Virus record (IMG/VR): IMGVR_UViG_3300027123_000152
Span: 1-22,625 of that record
Strand: one strand, 5' to 3'
DNA from: a virus
Length of the DNA stretch: 22,625 nucleotides
The translations under genes and the position numbers were made by a program. Position 1 is the stretch's first letter, and each line of letters begins with the position of its first letter. The notes under the pieces were generated by a model. The model did no database searches. It was not told where the DNA came from and was given only the letters and a program-made list of their open reading frames with translations. Below, piece by piece: positions 2,728 to 22,130 of this stretch.

Positions 2728-2809
2728 TATAAGGCGATTTTAGACACTTTCTCTATCAGGATGATAAATGGTACTGCCGTCAAGTATAGTGGGCTAAAAT
2801 CGCCTTATA
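2728..2809 (-). ncRNA. Candidate structured RNA: 16-bp perfect stem enclosing a three-way junction
   Basis: Two perfect 16-base inverted repeats (TATAAGGCGATTTTAG at 2728-2743 and its exact complement at 2794-2809) enclose 50 bases. Read as minus-strand RNA, the enclosed part folds further. A four-pair stem joins 2791-2788 to 2748-2745. Inside it sit a hairpin with UACU/AGUA and a seven-base UGACGGC loop (2786-2772) and a hairpin with UAUCA/UGAUA and a three-base loop (2766-2754). The long stem, nested helix and two arms form a three-way junction. There is no U-run after it, so it is not an ordinary terminator. It lies between two genes of the same direction, just before the ribosome site of the 40-residue gene. 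It could be a regulatory leader, a processed RNA or a nuclease/protein binding site. The fold was read by eye and no energy was computed. Confidence 0.5.
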
Positions 2810-4941: not shown

Positions 4942-5121
4942 TTAGTGTAACAAAACATATGTGAGGAAAAAGTTTAAAATAAAAAACATAGCCATTAAAG
5001 GTTCCAAAACTTGAGATGAATGGGCACCCTGATCAACTTCTTTAAAAGCCATTTCACGCAATGGTTCTAACATATAGAGACAAAACGCAGAAACCGCCAT
5101 AATAATAAGTGGTGTTGTCAT
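4942..5121 (-). CDS. Small two-helix membrane protein, 59 aa
   Basis: A short gene of 59 codons plus TAA. Its ATG at 5121 overlaps the stop of the preceding gene (ATGA, 5121-5118), which supports both coding status and the start; GGA lies five bases upstream. The peptide starts MTTPLIIMAVSAFCLYMLEP, giving a first hydrophobic segment at about residues 4-18. A polar, mildly acidic linker (LREMAFKEVDQGAHSSQ) follows, then a second hydrophobic helix at about 41-58 (LMAMFFILNFFLTYVLL). The size and two-helix topology fit holin-like or other small phage membrane proteins, and its place after virion genes is compatible with late expression. The exact role is not known. Confidence 0.65.
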   Translation of the reverse strand: MTTPLIIMAVSAFCLYMLEPLREMAFKEVDQGAHSSQVLEPLMAMFFILNFFLTYVLLH

Positions 5122-5726
5122 ATAAGTCCAACACTATTCAATAGCATTATCAATTGTTTAGCATCTGGATTTGTATACATGTCCGGGATGTTATTTTCGA
5201 CGGAATTATTAGTGAAATAATTGCCATTGGTTTCTACAGAGCGCCCTTCGTAAACAAACCAAGCAGATACTGTTCCAAAACGGGTGCCAATATTAAAGTA
5301 TTCATCTCCTGTCAAAGAAATAACCTGTCCGGGATTTACGATAAAAACTTGTTTTGTCTTGATGCCAATATGTTCACGAGATAAAACACTGGAATCACCA
5401 TCTTCGGTATACGTGTATTCATTAGCCAACACTGCAATATCATTCATTGCCTCTTCAACTGTCCAGACGCTGACAAAACCTTTGATGCATTCAATAGCGA
5501 TGTTTCTGCCGTATTGGGTGAAAGGATATGTTATACCATTTCCGCAGTTTATGGGTAATGAATTTTGTAAATTGTTGTTACTTTCAGTAATATAAAGCTT
5601 TATGCCTTTGGTGGGGGTGTCGATTAGATTAATCATGTGTAAACCCTTTACACCATAATTAAGATAGGAGTTTTCTGCGACGTTTTTGATGTTTTCTTTA
5701 ACAATATGTTTTACGAGTTCTTTCAT
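5118..5726 (-). CDS. Hypothetical protein, 202 aa, with hairpin-occluded ribosome-binding site
   Basis: Not recognised. The sequence is strand-rich, with SVWTVEEAMND, KQVFIVNPGQVISLTGDEYFNIGTRFG and a Gly/Asn-rich C-terminal part, and it resembles a compact beta-domain protein. No signal peptide or membrane segment is seen. The ATG at 5726 is preceded by AAAGGGA six bases upstream. That Shine-Dalgarno forms part of the 3' arm of a perfect 17-bp hairpin (5730-5788), and a TATAAT-like box lies at the edge of the loop. Expression is therefore probably restricted to transcripts that start inside the hairpin. It follows the baseplate genes and is coupled to a small membrane protein. A late virion or lysis-stage role is an inference from position only. 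Confidence 0.65.
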   Translation of the reverse strand: MKELVKHIVKENIKNVAENSYLNYGVKGLHMINLIDTPTKGIKLYITESNNNLQNSLPINCGNGITYPFTQYGRNIAIECIKGFVSVWTVEEAMNDIAVLANEYTYTEDGDSSVLSREHIGIKTKQVFIVNPGQVISLTGDEYFNIGTRFGTVSAWFVYEGRSVETNGNYFTNNSVENNIPDMYTNPDAKQLIMLLNSVGLI

Positions 5727-5729
5727 TAT

Positions 5730-5788
5730 TTTTCCCTTTGTGATATTTGTTATTATCTACGACGCCAAATTATATCACAAAGGGAAAA
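5730..5788 (-). promoter_or_regulatory. Perfect 17-bp hairpin hiding a ribosome site, with a promoter-like box inside
   Basis: Bases 5730-5746 and 5772-5788 are exact inverted repeats around a 25-base interior. On minus-strand RNA the 3' arm contains AAAGGGA, the Shine-Dalgarno of the gene starting at 5726. TATAATTT (5774-5767) straddles the 5' arm and loop. It matches the T4 late box TATAAATA at six of eight positions and also contains a perfect sigma-70 -10. Starts about six bases beyond the box would lie in the loop, so that transcript would lack the 5' arm and have a free ribosome site. Read-through transcripts would form the hairpin. T4 late genes such as e and soc use this logic. Confidence 0.6.
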
Positions 5789-5799
5789 TCTAGTCAATA

Positions 5800-6963
5800 T
5801 TAATTGATTGTTATTTCAGGATCATATGCGGTAAAGGACATTCCTGTTTGTGTTGGTAAATTGATATTAACATTTCCTAACATTAGCAACCCGGCAGGAT
5901 GTGTGGTTGACTTTACTAATACCTCATAATCTTTTACCATTATATTACTTGTTATGACATAAGAGTATGTTTGATACTTGTAACTGTCCTGAATTACACA
6001 TGTTCCTGATAATAATCCTCGTTGGGAAAGATATGCCCCTGTTTCATAGAACACACCACCAACATAACATTTTAATGAAGCTCCTTTATTGTTAGCATTG
6101 GTTATATTGAAAGTTGTTAGATACCCATAACCAGAATTTTCAACGATTAATGTTTTTATACCACCATTATCGTCTATGCTATTAACTTTTATAATAGCAT
6201 TTTCAAATGAACTTTCTCCGACGGGGATAACCTCACCAATACTATACCCTGAACCTGATATACCATCACCATTACCATCTGTTTGTACTTCAACCTTCCA
6301 AACATTTCCACTTAGTATTGATGAATATTTTTGCAGATTATCTCTAGTTTCAATGACTTCATTGTTCAAGAAAACACCAGACATGTTAGACAGTTCAATT
6401 ATATCATATGTAAAATCACCAATATTTGAACTGGTAACTTTATCCACAATAGCAACTGCCCCGGATATGATACCAAAAACTTTTCTCCCAACGATAGATA
6501 TTTCTGTTTTTGATGTTGTTTTTATGATTGTCTTTTTGCTCCATTCGCCGTCAGAACAACGAAGAATAAGCTCACCCGGATAATTAATAGTTGCTATGTC
6601 ATTGTATGCTATTCTAAACAAAAACTCTATAGAGGATTCTGTTCCCTTAGCCAAATAGAAATGTTTTATATATTTTAATAGTTTTCTTCTATCAGCAACT
6701 ATATCCTTTGGTAATGTTGGTGCCAGTTCTTGATAAAAAAACTCCAAAAACTCATCTTTTGTTTTTTCAATACTAAATGAATCTGGTAGATTGTATATTT
6801 CACTTATAACATTATTTTCTTGTTCTAAGTATTTGTAATAATGTTGTACAAAGTTCACAAAATTAGGGTATCTTTCACGCACATACATCGAAAATTGGTA
6901 TGGAACCAATTTAGATATTGTTTTATTTTTACCACTAACAGTGTCTATATTTTTATTTGCCAT
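5800..6963 (-). CDS. Probable baseplate/virion structural protein
   Basis: A 387-residue protein. The N-terminal region resembles a group of T4-like virion proteins that begin with a short segment, then a pattern like YPNFVNFVQHYYKYLE (about 33-48) and an acidic helix with FLEFFYQELAPTLPK. The following region (LLKYIKHFYLAKGTESSIEFLFRIAY) fits the same group. The rest is beta-rich and Gly/Ser-rich, like baseplate or fibre-attachment proteins. The ATG at 6963 lies one base after the stop of the gp6-like gene, so the two are tightly coupled. Position next to gp6 and gp25 supports a baseplate role. Exact T4 equivalence is not claimed. Confidence 0.7.
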   Translation of the reverse strand: MANKNIDTVSGKNKTISKLVPYQFSMYVRERYPNFVNFVQHYYKYLEQENNVISEIYNLPDSFSIEKTKDEFLEFFYQELAPTLPKDIVADRRKLLKYIKHFYLAKGTESSIEFLFRIAYNDIATINYPGELILRCSDGEWSKKTIIKTTSKTEISIVGRKVFGIISGAVAIVDKVTSSNIGDFTYDIIELSNMSGVFLNNEVIETRDNLQKYSSILSGNVWKVEVQTDGNGDGISGSGYSIGEVIPVGESSFENAIIKVNSIDDNGGIKTLIVENSGYGYLTTFNITNANNKGASLKCYVGGVFYETGAYLSQRGLLSGTCVIQDSYKYQTYSYVITSNIMVKDYEVLVKSTTHPAGLLMLGNVNINLPTQTGMSFTAYDPEITIN

Positions 6964-6964
6964 T

Positions 6965-8734
6965 TTATACTCTATTCAAAGTCAAAGAAATAGTGTTTAT
7001 TTGTCCAATGTTTCTCTGCGTTATTGAAATGTCATTGTCATATGGTGTTGCATATATCGACAAGAATAACTCACCTGTTTGTGTGTTTGCGTTATCAACA
7101 TTATCCAAACTTCCTATGGTAATGTTTGGTACAGAAAGTTTTCCTACTGCATAATTTACCGTTCCAATATTATTTGCTATCAATGTTTTTACATTATTTT
7201 GATAACGATATATCGCTAAAACTCCATTCATCTGACTATCATCAATAAAACAATTAGTATTTCCTTGGTATGTGAATGTGGATGAAGAAATAGTACCGGA
7301 GTTGAGTTGGTTGTTGAATGTAACGTCGAAAAATGTTTTGCCACCAATAACCGGATTAATGCGTTTCTCCAAAAATATCTTAGTGCTATTTGCAATAATA
7401 CTAGAATCACAAAAGTCAATTGTTCTTAAAAATACAGAATAATGGAAATCTTTATCAAATGATGACAATTGGTTGCTTTCAAAACTCTTTATAGCATCAT
7501 TTACTTTATTAGTCAAATCTGCTTCCGACACAGATAGTTTTGAACCGTCAAAAATCACTGTTATGCGCAAATTAATATAAATGTAATCTGGCTCATATAT
7601 TATTGGGGTGACTGTTATCATGTTATACTTTTTTAGGAAAGCAACAATATTACTTTTATCATATGTTGTCAAAAACAAACCGTTTTTTGGTTTCACTACA
7701 ACAATAACTTTACCGTATTGCGGGGGGTCGAGTGTATCGCCGCCATATGAAATAGCATCTTCGACCATGTTGTATTTCGCTTTAAGAATAGAAACATAGT
7801 CTGTGTCAATGACGGCACGGTTTTGTGTAGTATACATTAACGGTGCCATCTTTTTCATTGATTCTATTGTTTCTGGCTCCGACCCGCCTGCGGATGGGTT
7901 GACAACTAACACCTTTAATTTTCCGTTAACGGGTGTAACTGATGGTGTAAACACATCAAAACCATTTGCTATGCTTCCTGCACAAACCAAATATTTGATG
8001 ATAGCAACACTACCAACTTCCGGCTTACTTCCCAATATACCATCGCCAAAGTTCAATACGATTCTACCATCAGCATTTTCGTGATAGAAAAAAACATTGT
8101 CAGTTGGTTTTAAACTAACTAAATCGGAAAATAAAGTATAAGATGTTGTAACATTATTTGTGTTAATTACGTCAATAGTTGTTTGAGTGATATCAACATT
8201 TAAGTTTGGAATGATAAACCCATTTTTAAGAATATCATCTGTTATAGATTGTGTATATGTGAAACGTTTACCTTCATACACATCAAATGGTTCAGAAAGA
8301 TACCTTCCGTTTATTTCATTTATTTCTACGCTTTGGGTGGAAGTAAAAATATAAAATGAGTTTCCAACATTAGCAGATAAAGTTGGAGTGATTGAAAATG
8401 GTGTGAATACAGACGAACCTGAATCCTTGATATACTCGTATTGAAGGGTTGCTTTGGCAGCAGTAGCTGTTTTCACAGTATAACTCAAATCATGAACACG
8501 ATCAACAACAGAACTTCTTTTTATGGCAGTGTATAGGCGTGATTCATTAGCTACTTGGTTCATAAAGAACGCCAAATACGTTGTGTTTAAAGACATCACA
8601 TCTAAAAGAGTTGATGATGCCGAACCATTAAAGTTGTAGTCAGTGTATTCATCCTGTTTGGAAAGATATTCTTTGAAACCAGAGTTCAATGTATCAAAAT
8701 CAGGCAATACTGTTGGCAAATTTTGGGCAGTCAT
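6965..8734 (-). CDS. 6: Baseplate wedge protein, T4 gp6-like (baseplate J family)
   Basis: A 589-residue protein with the hallmarks of T4 gp6 and baseplate J proteins. The N-terminus has the typical pattern DEYTDYNFNGSASSTLLDVMSL (split here as about residues 28-41 and 42-49), then NTTYLAFFMNQVANESRLYTA and SVVDRVHDLSYTVKTATAAKATL. The central part has the family's NFGDGILGSKPEVGS (about 224-238) and SAGGSEPETIESMKKMAP (about 279-296), with the conserved GG and E residues, followed by the TDYVSILKAKYN segment. T4 gp6 is about 660 residues, so this is a slightly short but complete relative. It forms the wedge ring that holds the baseplate together. AAGGA lies seven bases before the start. It follows the gp25-fusion gene by 15 bases. 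Confidence 0.9.
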   Translation of the reverse strand: MTAQNLPTVLPDFDTLNSGFKEYLSKQDEYTDYNFNGSASSTLLDVMSLNTTYLAFFMNQVANESRLYTAIKRSSVVDRVHDLSYTVKTATAAKATLQYEYIKDSGSSVFTPFSITPTLSANVGNSFYIFTSTQSVEINEINGRYLSEPFDVYEGKRFTYTQSITDDILKNGFIIPNLNVDITQTTIDVINTNNVTTSYTLFSDLVSLKPTDNVFFYHENADGRIVLNFGDGILGSKPEVGSVAIIKYLVCAGSIANGFDVFTPSVTPVNGKLKVLVVNPSAGGSEPETIESMKKMAPLMYTTQNRAVIDTDYVSILKAKYNMVEDAISYGGDTLDPPQYGKVIVVVKPKNGLFLTTYDKSNIVAFLKKYNMITVTPIIYEPDYIYINLRITVIFDGSKLSVSEADLTNKVNDAIKSFESNQLSSFDKDFHYSVFLRTIDFCDSSIIANSTKIFLEKRINPVIGGKTFFDVTFNNQLNSGTISSSTFTYQGNTNCFIDDSQMNGVLAIYRYQNNVKTLIANNIGTVNYAVGKLSVPNITIGSLDNVDNANTQTGELFLSIYATPYDNDISITQRNIGQINTISLTLNRV

Positions 8735-12470: not shown

Positions 12471-13340
12471 TTAGAAATCATTTGCATTGTTATACAAGTT
12501 TCTAAGACCCTTTTCTATAAAATATGTTAATAATTTTGCTTTTGGTTTTGGTTTGTAATTAACATATTCATTGATAATTTGTTTTTTATAATCTTCCGGT
12601 ATACAACTCAAGTCAATAAGTTTCTTATTACGTTCGTAATTTTCTACATGTTCGGCGGAAACACCATTATTGTAAACAGATTCAATCAAACTTTCACGCA
12701 CTGGTTTCTGTCGCTTTTTAATAACAAAAGAATCTGAATCAGACAACATATTAGGTATACCGTCGCCAGAATCACCTCTGACAATATGTTCAATCAAAAA
12801 ACGGTCAGGTTCTGGTTCACGCATCCACTTTTTTTCCATAGGGTTCCATTGGACAATGTGTTTATTTTTTTGTAACTGCTTAAAGTCTTTGTCACGTGAG
12901 ATAATCAAAATATCTTGGTCTTCCTCAAACATCCCCTCGCCAACCGGCTCATTTTTTGATATATAGTCACTTAAAACGGCAATAACATCATCTGCTTCAC
13001 AACGAGGAACTGCAATAACGTGATATGGCATGTAGTCACGAAACTCTTGTTGGATATTGCTAATTGATTTAAATATCATTTCCCAATCAAGATGGGATTC
13101 TTCACGTGATTTTTTGCGATTATATTTGTAATATGGAAATATGTCTTTACGCCATGCGTTTCCAGTGTCACAACATATAATAAGTTTTCCATATTTGTGG
13201 GCGAATTGTTTTTTATATGATAACATCATGTTTAGTGTCAAATGACGTATCATACTTTCATCCAAAGATTCACCGAATGTTCTATCACCAACACTAACGG
13301 CTGAGATGATGGTTGGGTTGAAATCTAAAAGTATTGCCAT
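12471..13340 (-). CDS. rnh: RNase H / 5'-3' exonuclease (T4 Rnh-like, FEN-1 family)
   Basis: A 289-residue protein close in size to T4 RNase H (305 residues) and with all the metal-binding acids of the FEN-1/5' nuclease family. D6 is in AILLDFN and D58 in IICCD. The cluster CEADD (114-118) and SRDKD (148-152) follow, and VRGDSGDGIPN (187-197) gives the final pair and the start of the helix-hairpin-helix region. It removes RNA primers and short DNA stretches from Okazaki fragments in T4-type replication. AAGGGA lies five bases before ATG 13340. The C-terminal 60 residues are basic and would contact DNA or the single-strand-binding protein. It precedes the DUF6433-like gene. The assignment is firm. 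Confidence 0.92.
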   Translation of the reverse strand: MAILLDFNPTIISAVSVGDRTFGESLDESMIRHLTLNMMLSYKKQFAHKYGKLIICCDTGNAWRKDIFPYYKYNRKKSREESHLDWEMIFKSISNIQQEFRDYMPYHVIAVPRCEADDVIAVLSDYISKNEPVGEGMFEEDQDILIISRDKDFKQLQKNKHIVQWNPMEKKWMREPEPDRFLIEHIVRGDSGDGIPNMLSDSDSFVIKKRQKPVRESLIESVYNNGVSAEHVENYERNKKLIDLSCIPEDYKKQIINEYVNYKPKPKAKLLTYFIEKGLRNLYNNANDF

Positions 13341-14135: not shown

Positions 14136-14930
14136 TTATCTCAAATGGGGTTGGTATTGGTATAGATAACAATCTTTGCGTATAAAAGGAGCATCATTAC
14201 GCAAAATAATTGTTTTGTCTAATGTTTCAATGTTATTGTGGTTGTTTATATCACCTTTCAAACTGCGTATAAAATAGCTTTTTTTGGAAGTCCATACCAA
14301 AAACCCATCAGTGTTTGCCACTGCGGTTTGAAGAGTTTGACTATCTGGGTATGGTTCGGATATGTTTATTGTAGTCTTTTTATTCAATGTGACCTTTTTA
14401 ATGAGTTTCATAGTTTTTAACAAACTTTTATGATCAATCTCATTAATACCCTTACATTCAATAGTAAAAGCTTGCTTTCTACATGTTAATGCATAAGCTT
14501 TTATTGTAATAGGTGAGCCTTCCCACACAGCATATTTTACACCAATTGTTTGACAAAAGTCAACATAATCTTTTGCATATTGATCATTGTTTATCAAAAC
14601 AAACTCAGTACAATTTTTACTTGCATGAACATCTACAATATAATCAGCATCATCAATGTAAATCTTTAGTTTTTCTTTTAATAAATCATCACCATAAATG
14701 CGATTTAAGTCGCAGTTTGGATTATATTCACGTATTCCATTTAATATACCATGTTCATTAACTGCATGAGCAAAAATTATTTTCTTGTAAATTGAAAATA
14801 ATTTTTGCATATATTCTTGGTCAACTTCTAATTGATATAATGCCTCAATAGGTGTATATTCATTACCATGCACCCCAGACAACAATAACAACACGCCAGT
14901 TCCTTGGCCTTCATATGTTTTTATATTCAT
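14136..14930 (-). CDS. Aspartoacylase/succinylglutamate-desuccinylase-like zinc hydrolase
   Basis: A 264-residue member of the AspA/AstE branch of zinc carboxypeptidases (M14 fold). H21 and E24 in GVHGNE are the first zinc ligands. NEHG (58-61), R67 and the segment NPNCDLNR (70-77, N76/R77) bind the substrate carboxylate. H102 in DVHAS is the third zinc ligand, and E158 in IECKG is the likely general base. The set matches human aspartoacylase (H21, E24, R63, N70, R71, H116, E178), so an active hydrolase is expected. Family members cleave amides such as N-acetyl-aspartate or N-succinyl-glutamate. The phage substrate is unknown. A C-terminal strand-rich region follows. The start overlaps the gp46 stop by four bases (ATGA). 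Confidence 0.82.
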   Translation of the reverse strand: MNIKTYEGQGTGVLLLLSGVHGNEYTPIEALYQLEVDQEYMQKLFSIYKKIIFAHAVNEHGILNGIREYNPNCDLNRIYGDDLLKEKLKIYIDDADYIVDVHASKNCTEFVLINNDQYAKDYVDFCQTIGVKYAVWEGSPITIKAYALTCRKQAFTIECKGINEIDHKSLLKTMKLIKKVTLNKKTTINISEPYPDSQTLQTAVANTDGFLVWTSKKSYFIRSLKGDINNHNNIETLDKTIILRNDAPFIRKDCYLYQYQPHLR

Positions 14931-16684: not shown

Positions 16685-16713
16685 ATTGTAACACGATGTT
16701 ACAAACATGTCAA
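16685..16713 (-). promoter_or_regulatory. Sigma-70 promoter of gp46 with overlapping dyad
   Basis: TTGACA (16713-16708), a 17-base spacer ending TGT, and TACAAT (16690-16685) form a near-consensus extended -10 promoter on the minus strand. An 8-bp dyad, TTGTAACA-TCG-TGTTACAA (16704-16686), covers most of the spacer and the -10 box and could be an operator. The terminator of the preceding gene is immediately upstream. Confidence 0.8.
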
Positions 16714-16738
16714 GAAAAAAAGGGAGACTATGCCCTTA
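16714..16738 (-). terminator. Short terminator after the membrane-protein gene
   Basis: A 5-bp stem (AAGGG/CCCTT, 16720-16724 with 16733-16737) with an eight-base loop, followed on the minus strand by a run of U. It is weak in stem length but directly abuts the gp46 promoter, the expected place for a unit boundary. Confidence 0.5.
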
Positions 16739-18446: not shown

Positions 18447-19913
18447 TTACCACAACCCGGTGTTTTTACGAACTTCTTCCATCGTAAACTCACGAGTCAA
18501 CGGAACTTCGTGACCCCACTTTCGGTTGTAGATATAAACCGTTTCAAGAACATCTTCACGGCTATCCTTCTTATCATCAGCAACGGTAATGTAATTATCA
18601 CCATCACGAACAACCTTCAAGCGTCCCTTCTTAGAAGCCTTAGTCATATCAGTCTTCGGCATCTTTTGAACATCACGACCTGCGCCATAGATTTCAACAT
18701 ATGCACATTTCTGAGCAAAGCGGAAAGTGTCACGGTCATGCTTCTGCAACAGGCCACCACCCATACCGAATGCAACGTTTTCGATAGAGTAGCCAGCAGC
18801 TTCAACCGCTTCGATAATTTCAGGAAGAGATTCCATATTGATACCATCACCTTGAATAACACGTACACAAGAAGCAAGAACCTTATAACCCTTGCTGTTT
18901 ACAGTAGAACCGAATGCTTCGTCAAGCCATTGTAGGCAACTAACAACAGATTCAGCCGGAACACCAGAGTCAGGACGCACAACAATGGTACTACCAGAGT
19001 TGATAATCAAATCCTTTAGAGTCTTGCCGATGTGGTTACGAACCGCATTTTCCATGTCATAGCTGTCAACAACCATTGCGAGAAATTGAGAGCTACCGCC
19101 ATAATTCTTGGCAAACTTGCGAATGTGGTTTTCGAAAGCAGCACATTCACCATCACGACCCCAAGAGGTAACGGTGCTGTGTTCCATTGCGGCAATCGAA
19201 TATGCCAACATTGCAACAGTGTTGTAAACGCTCTGGGCAGTGCGAATAGAAGAAACGGTATCACTCCCCATGAAGTTGACCAAGTGTCCCATACCACCAA
19301 TTGCAGCAGCTTCTTGGCAATATGCGCCACGGCTGCCAAAATCATGCAGCTTGAACAGAACTTCGCTTTTTGCATCAGCATCAGAAGACTTTTCAAATGC
19401 TTCAATGAGTTTTACCTTCATGTGATAGCTGATGGTAGCAACGTTGATCATAGCCCAATTGCGAACAATTAGGGTTTCAATGTATTGTGGCAACCATGCG
19501 ACGTTTTCATCAAGGCTTTCGATGCTGAACAGGCAGTTGCTACGGTCAATAACAGTACCTTCTGGAATTGCACGAATTTCAAGTGGCAAGTAACCACCGT
19601 GTACGTCAACAATATAGCGCCAGCCTTCTTCATTGAAACAACCCATGTGTTCCATGAAAAATGCTTTAGCATCGGTAACTTCATCGTGAGTTACACGAAC
19701 TGAAAGAATGGTTTTGATGATGTATTGAAGACCAAACATCACGATCTTCTTAAAGCCTTCGCCGAGGCGAGATTCGAAGTAGGAATAAAGCTTAGTCATT
19801 CCTTCTGGGTATTGAGCGTATTGGCTTGCCTTGTACGAATCAATATCGAACAGAGGACTGAGAACGGGACGGGTGAATCGGACAATAGGGGTAAGTTTGA
19901 ACTTAGGTTTCAT
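18447..19913 (-). CDS. nadV: Nicotinamide phosphoribosyltransferase (NAMPT/NadV)
   Basis: A 488-residue enzyme nearly identical in length to human NAMPT (491). It joins nicotinamide to PRPP to form NMN. Family motifs are present in order: DSYKASQYAQYP near the N-terminus, KLHDFGSRGAYCQEAAAIGG, SIAAMEHSTVTSWG with the catalytic histidine, MVVDSYDMENAVRN, VVRPDSGVP, VIQGDGINM and FGMGGGLLQK. The start is ATG 19913, with GAGG eight bases upstream; longer in-frame starts exist upstream but overlap the promoter. Together with NMN adenylyltransferase encoded 1 kb away it gives the two-step NAD+ salvage route known in phage KVP40 and as a counter to NAD-depleting defences. The gene looks less AT-rich than its neighbours. 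A strong terminator follows. Confidence 0.95.
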   Translation of the reverse strand: MKPKFKLTPIVRFTRPVLSPLFDIDSYKASQYAQYPEGMTKLYSYFESRLGEGFKKIVMFGLQYIIKTILSVRVTHDEVTDAKAFFMEHMGCFNEEGWRYIVDVHGGYLPLEIRAIPEGTVIDRSNCLFSIESLDENVAWLPQYIETLIVRNWAMINVATISYHMKVKLIEAFEKSSDADAKSEVLFKLHDFGSRGAYCQEAAAIGGMGHLVNFMGSDTVSSIRTAQSVYNTVAMLAYSIAAMEHSTVTSWGRDGECAAFENHIRKFAKNYGGSSQFLAMVVDSYDMENAVRNHIGKTLKDLIINSGSTIVVRPDSGVPAESVVSCLQWLDEAFGSTVNSKGYKVLASCVRVIQGDGINMESLPEIIEAVEAAGYSIENVAFGMGGGLLQKHDRDTFRFAQKCAYVEIYGAGRDVQKMPKTDMTKASKKGRLKVVRDGDNYITVADDKKDSREDVLETVYIYNRKWGHEVPLTREFTMEEVRKNTGLW

Positions 19914-19982
19914 GTTTAGTGCCTCACTAATTAATTTTTTGACAGTTTTCTCTTTTACAAGAGTCGCAGCACCTCGCTGCAT
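19914..19982 (-). promoter_or_regulatory. NAMPT 5' leader with three small hairpins
   Basis: The leader between the predicted start site (about 19982) and ATG 19913 contains three hairpins: GCAGC-GAGGT-GCTGC (19980-19966), CTCTT-GTAA-AAGAG (19963-19950) and TTAGTG-AGG-CACTAA (19930-19916). The last one places the GAGG ribosome site in its loop and stem, so folding would limit translation. The first one closely matches the hairpin in the NMN-adenylyltransferase leader. A ligand or protein sensor is possible but not shown. Confidence 0.5.
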
Positions 19983-19988
19983 AGTGGT

Positions 19989-20017
19989 ATTTAACCACAT
20001 TTCCAACCGCTTGTCAA
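19989..20017 (-). promoter_or_regulatory. Promoter of the NAMPT gene with dyad at the -10
   Basis: TTGACA (20017-20012), a 17-base spacer ending TGG, and TTAAAT (19994-19989) form an extended -10 promoter on the minus strand. The -10 box lies in a dyad GTGGT-TAAAT-ACCAC (19998-19984). It sits within what would be the coding region if a longer NAMPT start were used, which supports the start at 19913. Confidence 0.65.
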
Positions 20018-20197: not shown

Positions 20198-20673
20198 GAT
20201 ATAGCCTTTTGTTTGGTGTTTAATTCGCCGCTCAAATACAACAATTTCAAATAAACGGCATGTACATAACCAAAAATCATTTGGTCGTATTGAATACTGA
20301 ACTTTAAACCTTCAATATAGGCATTGTCAATACCCATCATAGACCATTGGTCGGAACACACATACGAAATTGACATGTCATGTTCGTCTAAGCCAAATGT
20401 TATTTGATCTGGTATACCGATATAACCAAATACTTTCGCATATGATTCAAAATCATGAAAATCATAGTTTTTATCATAATGATTAACAATGACAAAAAAC
20501 ATTTCTGTTAATGTTTTTTCATTTTCTTCTTTGCATGTACATGCAAATGTACTATAATAAATCGTGTCATTATAAGTGTTTACCTCAACATCAAACTCAT
20601 AACCATTTTTCAAAACAACAGCCTTGAGTTTTTTGTATAAGTCTTGGCGGTATTCATCAAACTCTGTTGACAT
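20194..20673 (-). CDS. Hypothetical protein, 159 aa
   Basis: Not recognised. ATG 20673 is chosen because GGGGA lies five bases upstream and the preceding gene stops one base earlier; an in-frame ATG at 20718 would overlap that gene by 44 bases. The protein starts MSTEFDEYRQDLYKKLKAVV. It has a mixed alpha/beta composition with aromatic-rich strands (TYNDTIYYSTFACTCKEEN, MSISYVCSDQWSMMG) and a C-terminal helix with hydrophobic residues (AVYLKLLYLSG). The cysteines are not in zinc spacing apart from one CTC pair. No signal peptide. It may be a small globular accessory protein. Function unknown. Confidence 0.65.
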   Translation of the reverse strand: MSTEFDEYRQDLYKKLKAVVLKNGYEFDVEVNTYNDTIYYSTFACTCKEENEKTLTEMFFVIVNHYDKNYDFHDFESYAKVFGYIGIPDQITFGLDEHDMSISYVCSDQWSMMGIDNAYIEGLKFSIQYDQMIFGYVHAVYLKLLYLSGELNTKQKAIS

Positions 20674-20980: not shown

Positions 20981-22090
20981 TCAGATTTTTGCAAACTTCA
21001 TCATGGAGCGGATAATATGGAAATGATCCTCAAAAAAGTTACCTTCGAGTTGATTCAAATTTTCCAATGGAACCCATTCCGCCTTTTCAGCATCGTCAGA
21101 GCCAACTACCTTCGGCAATTCTTGTTCGTCCAAAATGAACAAACCAGCATGCGTAATTGTACGACCACGCAAAGAACGTCCCGGCGCATCGAATACTTCG
21201 ATAGCTTTCAAACTACCATTCAACTTTCCCGGTGGAATACGGATTTTTGTTTCTTCATTCAACTCACGAAGAATGCCATCACGAACCTTTTCATTGTGGT
21301 TCAAAAAGCCACCGGGAAGGGCATAGCAACCACGACCGGGAGATTCCTTGCGGCGGATAACCAACACACAACCATTAGAGAACACAACAGAATCACAGGT
21401 CACAAAAATTGGAGGATATGGTGCTACAGACCACATTTCCTTGTATTTTTCATAATGTTCGTATTCTTCGGTGATCCAATCAAGTCGGTTATAATCAAAG
21501 TTTTCGAACATGGCATCAAACGCCTTGATACCCATACGGGAAACCAAATAGTTTTTGACCATTGATTCAAATTGAACGGAATCGCTGTTATATTCACTCT
21601 TACAAATAGACCACGTTTTATACATGAAATTACGCAAGTTGGTTGCGTGAATCATTTCAGTTTTTCCATTATCCGTGTAGTGGAACGGTTCTACTTCACT
21701 CGACTTGTACAGGGGAAACCACTTCAAATATTGACTGGTTTGGTCTTTCGTAAACCCATAAATGGTGTATGTGTTTTCAGTAGGAACAACGGCTTGGTAA
21801 GCAACCCATTTGATTTGCTTACGAACATCAAGAACCCATTCTTGATCGTCATATAGATTGTCACGGACATTAACAAAAATGATTTTTTCAGGTGCGGAAA
21901 CACTTGCAAGAATGATTTTTTGGATTTCAGTTTCATTCAAAAGCTTTTTTGGGTTGTGCGCAGCTTTAAAGCTACCGTTGACTACAATGACGTAATCGCT
22001 CTTAGCAAGAGCGGATTCAATGAGATGAATGTGACCCAAGTGTGGGGGATTGAAACGGCCAATAACAATGCCATATTTCATTTTTTGCAT
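20981..22090 (-). CDS. nadM: Bifunctional NMN adenylyltransferase / Nudix hydrolase
   Basis: A 369-residue two-domain protein. The N-terminal domain (about 1-190) is a NadM-type adenylyltransferase with GRFNPPHLGHIHLIESAL carrying the HxGH motif and ATNLRNFM in place of the ISSTxxR motif, so it joins NMN and ATP to NAD+. The C-terminal domain (about 205-369) is a Nudix hydrolase with GGFLNHNEKVRDGILRELNE followed by ET, in which the usual final Gly of the Nudix box is Lys. Similar fusions act in NAD+ salvage and clean-up of ADP-ribose. ATG 22090 has GAGGA eight bases upstream; an in-frame ATG at 22126 has none. It acts after NAMPT, encoded 1 kb downstream. Confidence 0.92.
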   Translation of the reverse strand: MQKMKYGIVIGRFNPPHLGHIHLIESALAKSDYVIVVNGSFKAAHNPKKLLNETEIQKIILASVSAPEKIIFVNVRDNLYDDQEWVLDVRKQIKWVAYQAVVPTENTYTIYGFTKDQTSQYLKWFPLYKSSEVEPFHYTDNGKTEMIHATNLRNFMYKTWSICKSEYNSDSVQFESMVKNYLVSRMGIKAFDAMFENFDYNRLDWITEEYEHYEKYKEMWSVAPYPPIFVTCDSVVFSNGCVLVIRRKESPGRGCYALPGGFLNHNEKVRDGILRELNEETKIRIPPGKLNGSLKAIEVFDAPGRSLRGRTITHAGLFILDEQELPKVVGSDDAEKAEWVPLENLNQLEGNFFEDHFHIIRSMMKFAKI

Positions 22091-22130
22091 GATGTTCTTC
22101 CTCAGAATGTATAGGTTTGTTTTCATAAAA

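Follow-up and report, generated by a model that had tools for sequence, protein, structure and literature searches.

The transposase genes of IS10 (Tn10) and IS50 are translated from RNA made at their native promoters, while RNA that comes in from neighboring DNA adopts a fold in which the transposase start is hidden; this protection from outside promoters was reportedly set out by Davis, Simons and Kleckner in 1985 (cited in PMC2965389). In phage T4, the locks that have been described all concern late genes, for which early or middle read-through RNA is silent and a late promoter frees the ribosome site (PMC2988022, PMC3014915). Here, a hairpin over a ribosome site is analyzed in the window, i.e., the whole stretch of 22,625 nucleotides that was studied (positions 1 to 22,625 of IMG/VR record IMGVR_UViG_3300027123_000152), the source of which is an uncultured T4-like phage distant from T4. 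The site most likely acts in the manner of the T4 locks, except that its promoter is of an early type. We propose that it keeps read-through RNA from expressing an accessory gene; this gene would be on early or constitutively through a sigma70 promoter and off in late read-through RNA, and we assign this reading a probability of roughly two in three. The proposal draws on computed evidence, namely a repeat that is rare by chance, the match to a promoter, the placement of the ribosome site in one arm, the opening cost, the recurrence of such sites in the T4 group, and the covariation of the regB stem.

Hairpin over the Ribosome Site

The leader, TATTGACTAGATTTTCCCTTTGTGATATAATTTGGCGTCGTAGATAATAACAAATATCACAAAGGGAAAAATAATG, lies on the minus strand downstream of the stop codon (5802-5800) of a baseplate wedge gene (5800-6963, minus strand). 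This gene closes the structural block, and RNA reading through from that block would be locked. The leader contains an inverted repeat of 17 nt per arm, with 100% complementarity and a 25-nt spacer. The 5' arm, TTTTCCCTTTGTGATAT (5772-5788), overlaps the spacer and -10 element of a promoter, and the 3' arm, ATATCACAAAGGGAAAA (5730-5746), holds the Shine-Dalgarno sequence of a 202-aa gene. A perfect repeat of at least 15 bp with a spacer of up to 60 nt was found in 0 of 200 dinucleotide shuffles of the whole window, and the folded leader of the 202-aa gene gave z = -3.9. The Shine-Dalgarno sequence AAGGGA (5738-5733, minus strand), recognized from the sequence and by computed anti-SD pairing, lies entirely within the 3' arm, shortly 5' of the ATG at 5726, which bears out the preliminary description of a ribosome site held in the 3' arm of a perfect 17-bp hairpin. 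Since the stop codon of the upstream baseplate gene is located 11 nt ahead of the stem, a ribosome that finishes this gene should barely disturb the pairing.

An intrinsic terminator at the hairpin was considered and rejected, as the stem has no T run and was not reported by the terminator scan. No Rfam families or tRNAs were found in the window. A second perfect repeat in the window (2728-2743 / 2794-2809), of 16 bp with a 50-nt spacer, occupies the gap before the gene at 2589-2200; neither a good promoter nor a ribosome site was recognized in its arms, and a possible 40-aa ORF follows it. A further perfect repeat of 15 bp, GCAAAAATTATTTTC / GAAAATAATTTTTGC (14770-14784 / 14794-14808), falls within a coding region (14930-14136).

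Promoter Nested in the 5' Arm

The promoter scan identified the sigma70-type -35 hexamer TTGACT (5797-5792, minus strand), directly past the stop codon of the upstream gene, and the -10 hexamer TATAAT (5774-5769), separated by a 17-nt spacer. Together, these hexamers match the sigma70 consensus at 11 of 12 positions, the -35 being near-consensus and the -10 exact, and an extended -10 of the TGTGn type, TGTGA, is present at 5779-5775 on the same strand. The box TATAATTT begins at 5774 with its first bases within the arm, so that the earlier statement that a box starts in the 5' arm stands; it shares 6 of 8 positions with the T4 late box TATAAATA, against the 11 of 12 for the sigma70 hexamers. 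A late promoter of the T4 type, i.e., TATAAATA without a -35, is therefore not what this site displays: a TATAAT accompanied by a -35 and an extended -10 forms a sigma70-type promoter that overlaps the 5' arm. The sequence match suggests that this promoter is active, and from the position of the -10, RNA is predicted to start within 5770-5755, at about 5762.

Three sites of this quality (11/12 with a 17-nt spacer) are present in the window, each of them on the coding strand, where 0.43 would be expected for the two strands together. The second (16713-16685) lies just upstream of a gp46-like recombination gene, the T4 counterpart of which is not structural, and the third (2334-2306) lies within a coding region. 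In the interval 16685-16737, a terminator-like hairpin is followed by the second of these promoters, whose spacer and -10 are covered by the dyad TTGTAACA-TCG-TGTTACAA, which could be an operator.

Computed Strength of the Proposed Lock

The opening cost, defined as the energy needed to open positions -18 to +3 of a gene, was compared across 33 window genes. The 202-aa gene in read-through RNA has the highest value of the 33, 17.1 kcal/mol, while in the short RNA the cost falls to 2.2-3.0 kcal/mol for every start from 5770 to 5755. When the lost 60 nt were replaced by shuffles, the real opening cost was reached in 0 of 2000 cases; the lost leader thus pairs with the ribosome site beyond what shuffled leaders achieve. 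The same measure applied to known T4 locks as positive controls gave 17.0 kcal/mol for gene 49, 14.2 kcal/mol for I-TevII, and 8.9 kcal/mol for soc. Hence, in the long RNA, a stable hairpin encloses the ribosome site in its 3' arm, and sequence and folding point to an internal promoter that would yield RNA devoid of the 5' arm. Two further elements of the preliminary description agree with these computations, namely that RNA starting near 5761 without the 5' arm has an open ribosome site (a cost of about 3 kcal/mol) and that baseplate read-through RNA is locked for the 202-aa gene (17 kcal/mol).

The 202-aa Gene and Its Surroundings

The gene behind the proposed lock lies at 5118-5726 (minus strand, ATG at 5726). 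Its frame has a codon usage similar to that of the neighboring genes, and the other five frames score lower. Its product matched no Pfam family and has a weak N-terminal match to phrog_8313 only; a PDB sequence search with the protein returned nothing significant, and a single-sequence AlphaFold model had a mean pLDDT of 30 and was unusable. No homologue was found by tblastn in 50,697 phage records or in viral contigs. Relatives were sought through the 202-aa protein, two baseplate genes, a 132-aa gene, and the RNA ligase, and this search yielded one near-identical contig only, which ends inside the upstream gene, before the hairpin site. The combined arm and box, CCCTTTGTGATATAAT, had 24 matches in viral contigs, approximately the chance level, of which 0 carried the second arm.

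The neighbors of the 202-aa gene are baseplate and RNA ligase genes. Elsewhere in the window, a NAMPT-like gene and a nucleotidyltransferase/Nudix-like fusion (18447-20006 and 20981-22126), the latter recognized by sequence reading only, could represent a possible NAD salvage pair.

Proposed Mechanism and Timing

In the proposed mechanism, the 5' arm incorporates a host-sigma70 promoter, while the 3' arm carries the ribosome site of the 202-aa gene. RNA from the nested promoter (about 5762) would start in the loop, form no stem, and be translated. RNA entering from the baseplate operon would contain both arms and fold into the 17-bp stem, leaving the 202-aa gene untranslated. The gene would accordingly be expressed early, or constitutively, and would be kept off in late RNA. 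The activity and timing of the promoter, the read-through from the late operon, and the repression itself are postulated parts of this scheme.

The preliminary description had termed the site a late-gene switch, a label that does not fit the host sigma70-type promoter with its near-consensus -35 and its exact and extended -10. Furthermore, the only exact TATAAATA of the window (10124-10117, minus strand) precedes the structural genes that would make the locked read-through RNA; it lies 27 nt upstream of the first gene in the structural block 10089-5800 and is itself preceded by a terminator-like hairpin. Because the count of TATAAATA in the window is not above chance (1 vs 3.2 expected), it is the position of this copy that marks it as a candidate T4-type late promoter ahead of the structural block. 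From the position of this one box, RNA reading into the 202-aa gene would presumably be late. The timing is thus probably opposite to that first described, i.e., early or constitutive on and off in late baseplate read-through. This order is suggested by the class of the promoter, which is of the host sigma70 type, and by the neighboring genes, from which the RNA that reads in is presumably late. A strong sigma70 promoter might remain active late, in which case the hairpin would only prevent extra expression.

Recurrence at Early Promoters of the T4 Group

A lock scan under one rule covered 15 phages: T4, seven other members of the T4 group, and seven distant relatives. Promoters were required to be of the sigma70 type, with a -35 matching TTGACA or TTTACA at no fewer than 5 of 6 positions and a start 14-60 nt before the gene, and a strong lock was defined by a gain of at least 8 kcal/mol on leader loss with at most 2% of leader shuffles as good; gene starts were simple ORF calls rather than curated annotation. 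Strong locks were found at 28 of 427 early-type promoters, compared with 7 among 600 sampled genes that lacked a promoter match (Fisher p ~3e-6), and one of these seven controls proved to be an early promoter that the rule had missed. T4 (10/34), RB69 (3/46), JS98 (5/43), and 44RR (4/34) account for the enrichment; the other eleven phages show no significant excess (6/270 vs 6/440, p 0.28). RB49 had no strong lock among its 55 early-type promoters, and none was detected by the scan in pf16, V45v66, ACP17, or DLP6.

The named locked early genes of T4 (NC_000866, minus strand) are regB (62279-62740), alc (135772-136275), alt.-3 (122742-123032), nrdC.8 (53358-53885), modB (12507-13130), and motB.2 (7661-8161), with denV weaker; the early-type promoters of these loci sit in hairpins that cover the ribosome site. 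Long dyads across the -10 also occur at the T4 early promoters of ipII (65416-65718), ipIII (65834-66415), dmd (20371-20553), and an ORF at 57828-57932, where the ribosome site is not reached or is only bordered. An e/soc layout was observed at the loci L098 14369-15076, L097 13622-15103, L093 9010-9777, and L092 4835-5521 (Rhizobium phage RHph_I1_18), in which a late-type box, GATAAATAC or AATAAATAC, is located at the 5' arm and the hairpin covers the ribosome site.

The regB stem is kept with differing sequences in T4, RB69, JS98, and viral contigs. With the -35 box and the Shine-Dalgarno sequence, rather than the pairing, as anchors for the arms, two-sided changes were found at 7 of 14 pairs and 86% of cells pair, in a set of only six related sequences, too few for shuffle figures to be read as probabilities; when the register was slid by 1 to 3 in these six, there were no two-sided changes and at most 53% of cells paired. 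For regB and motB.2, and for alc when distant groups are compared, most swaps of arms reduce the pairing. Compensatory change that supports pairing is therefore seen for regB in T-even relatives. We tentatively suggest, at slightly less than even odds, that the T4 group and the window phage share a class of early locks, in which a sigma70 early promoter is nested in a hairpin over the ribosome site of its gene; takeover genes such as regB, alc, and modB would then need RNA from that promoter for their translation and would remain off in RNA reading through from upstream. Such an early-gene class is not described in the open-access T4 reviews cited above, and an earlier description in older specialist papers is possible.

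Alternative Explanations

A late switch of the T4 e/soc type, in which TATAATTT would serve as a late box and the gene would stay untranslated in earlier read-through and open late, is unlikely. It would account for a layout identical to that of e and soc, for the partial agreement of TATAATTT with TATAAATA noted above, and for the placement of the 202-aa gene after baseplate genes, and relatives do have late-type locks too, strong in 20 of 293 late-type sites. However, a late promoter has no need of the correctly spaced -35 and extended -10, and an exact TATAAATA already heads the structural block. The baseplate read-through is itself presumably late, and therefore a late switch would have no earlier RNA to silence.

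The repeat could also act in DNA, as two inverted repressor sites that cover or loop the promoter, with the RNA stem as a by-product. Such an operator would fit the overlap of the repeat with the -10 and the 42 bp between the arm centers, which correspond to four helical turns, and the promoter at 16713-16685 likewise has a small dyad over its -10. However, no operator requires an arm to end exactly over a Shine-Dalgarno sequence; the window has no further close copy of the arm (0 matches with 1 or 2 mismatches) and no recognized repressor gene, and the regB stem of T4 relatives covaries as its sequence changes, as expected of RNA pairing, which makes this explanation quite improbable. Very improbable, in turn, is that the hairpin is the end of the baseplate RNA, i.e., an RNase III-type processing site or a 3' stabilizer, and that the promoter is present by chance. 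A long perfect stem so close behind the stop codon of the last baseplate gene would suit this role, but the stem lacks the T run needed for termination and was missed by the terminator scan, and both the position of its end over the Shine-Dalgarno sequence and the overlap of the other arm with the promoter would be left unexplained. Cleavage in the loop would likewise free the ribosome site and may be an addition to the lock.

Implications and Comparison with Known Systems

If the read-through lock is correct, promoter activity alone does not set the timing of expression, and the origin of the RNA makes the same DNA productive or silent. The known locks of T4 postpone the expression of late genes; a lock on early genes would stop the synthesis of early, possibly toxic takeover proteins despite polymerase read-through, and RNA-seq coverage of locked genes need not imply translation. 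Since regB and alc lie in T4, a tractable laboratory phage, the idea of an early lock is directly testable.

Compared with IS10 and IS50, in which the arms derive from the ends of the mobile element, the window site shows no trace of a transposon, and RNA reading in would come from the phage's own operon. An IS10/IS50-type end with a transposase was considered and rejected, given the absence of a Pfam match, the weak phrog_8313 match, and the baseplate and RNA ligase neighbors.

The window site shares with T4 e, soc, 49, and I-TevI/II/III a promoter in the 5' arm and a Shine-Dalgarno sequence in the 3' arm (PMC3014915, PMC2988022); as in those genes, its long RNA would be silent and its short RNA open, at similar opening costs. 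In the e/soc group, however, the promoters are late (TATAAATA, without a -35), and it is early or middle RNA that stays silent, whereas at the window site the promoter is of the sigma70 type and the silent RNA is presumably late, i.e., the reverse order. The parallel to e and soc that was first drawn thus holds for layout and logic, while the T4 early genes regB and alc are the closer counterparts. Like the window site, regB, alc, modB, nrdC.8, alt.-3, motB.2, and denV of the T4 group have a sigma70-type early promoter in the 5' arm and the ribosome site in the 3' arm, with a similar computed strength and often a TGTGn-type -10. These genes are unrelated to the 202-aa gene of the window. The T4 early promoters have a GTTTAC -35, a start about 21 nt before the ATG, and short loops, in contrast to the TTGACT -35, the start about 36 nt before the ATG, and the 25-nt loop of the window site, which is closest in shape to a 44RR locus (L173, 8948-9472, start at -33). 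Because the late promoter that defines the e/soc group is missing, the window site is best placed as a variant of that group.
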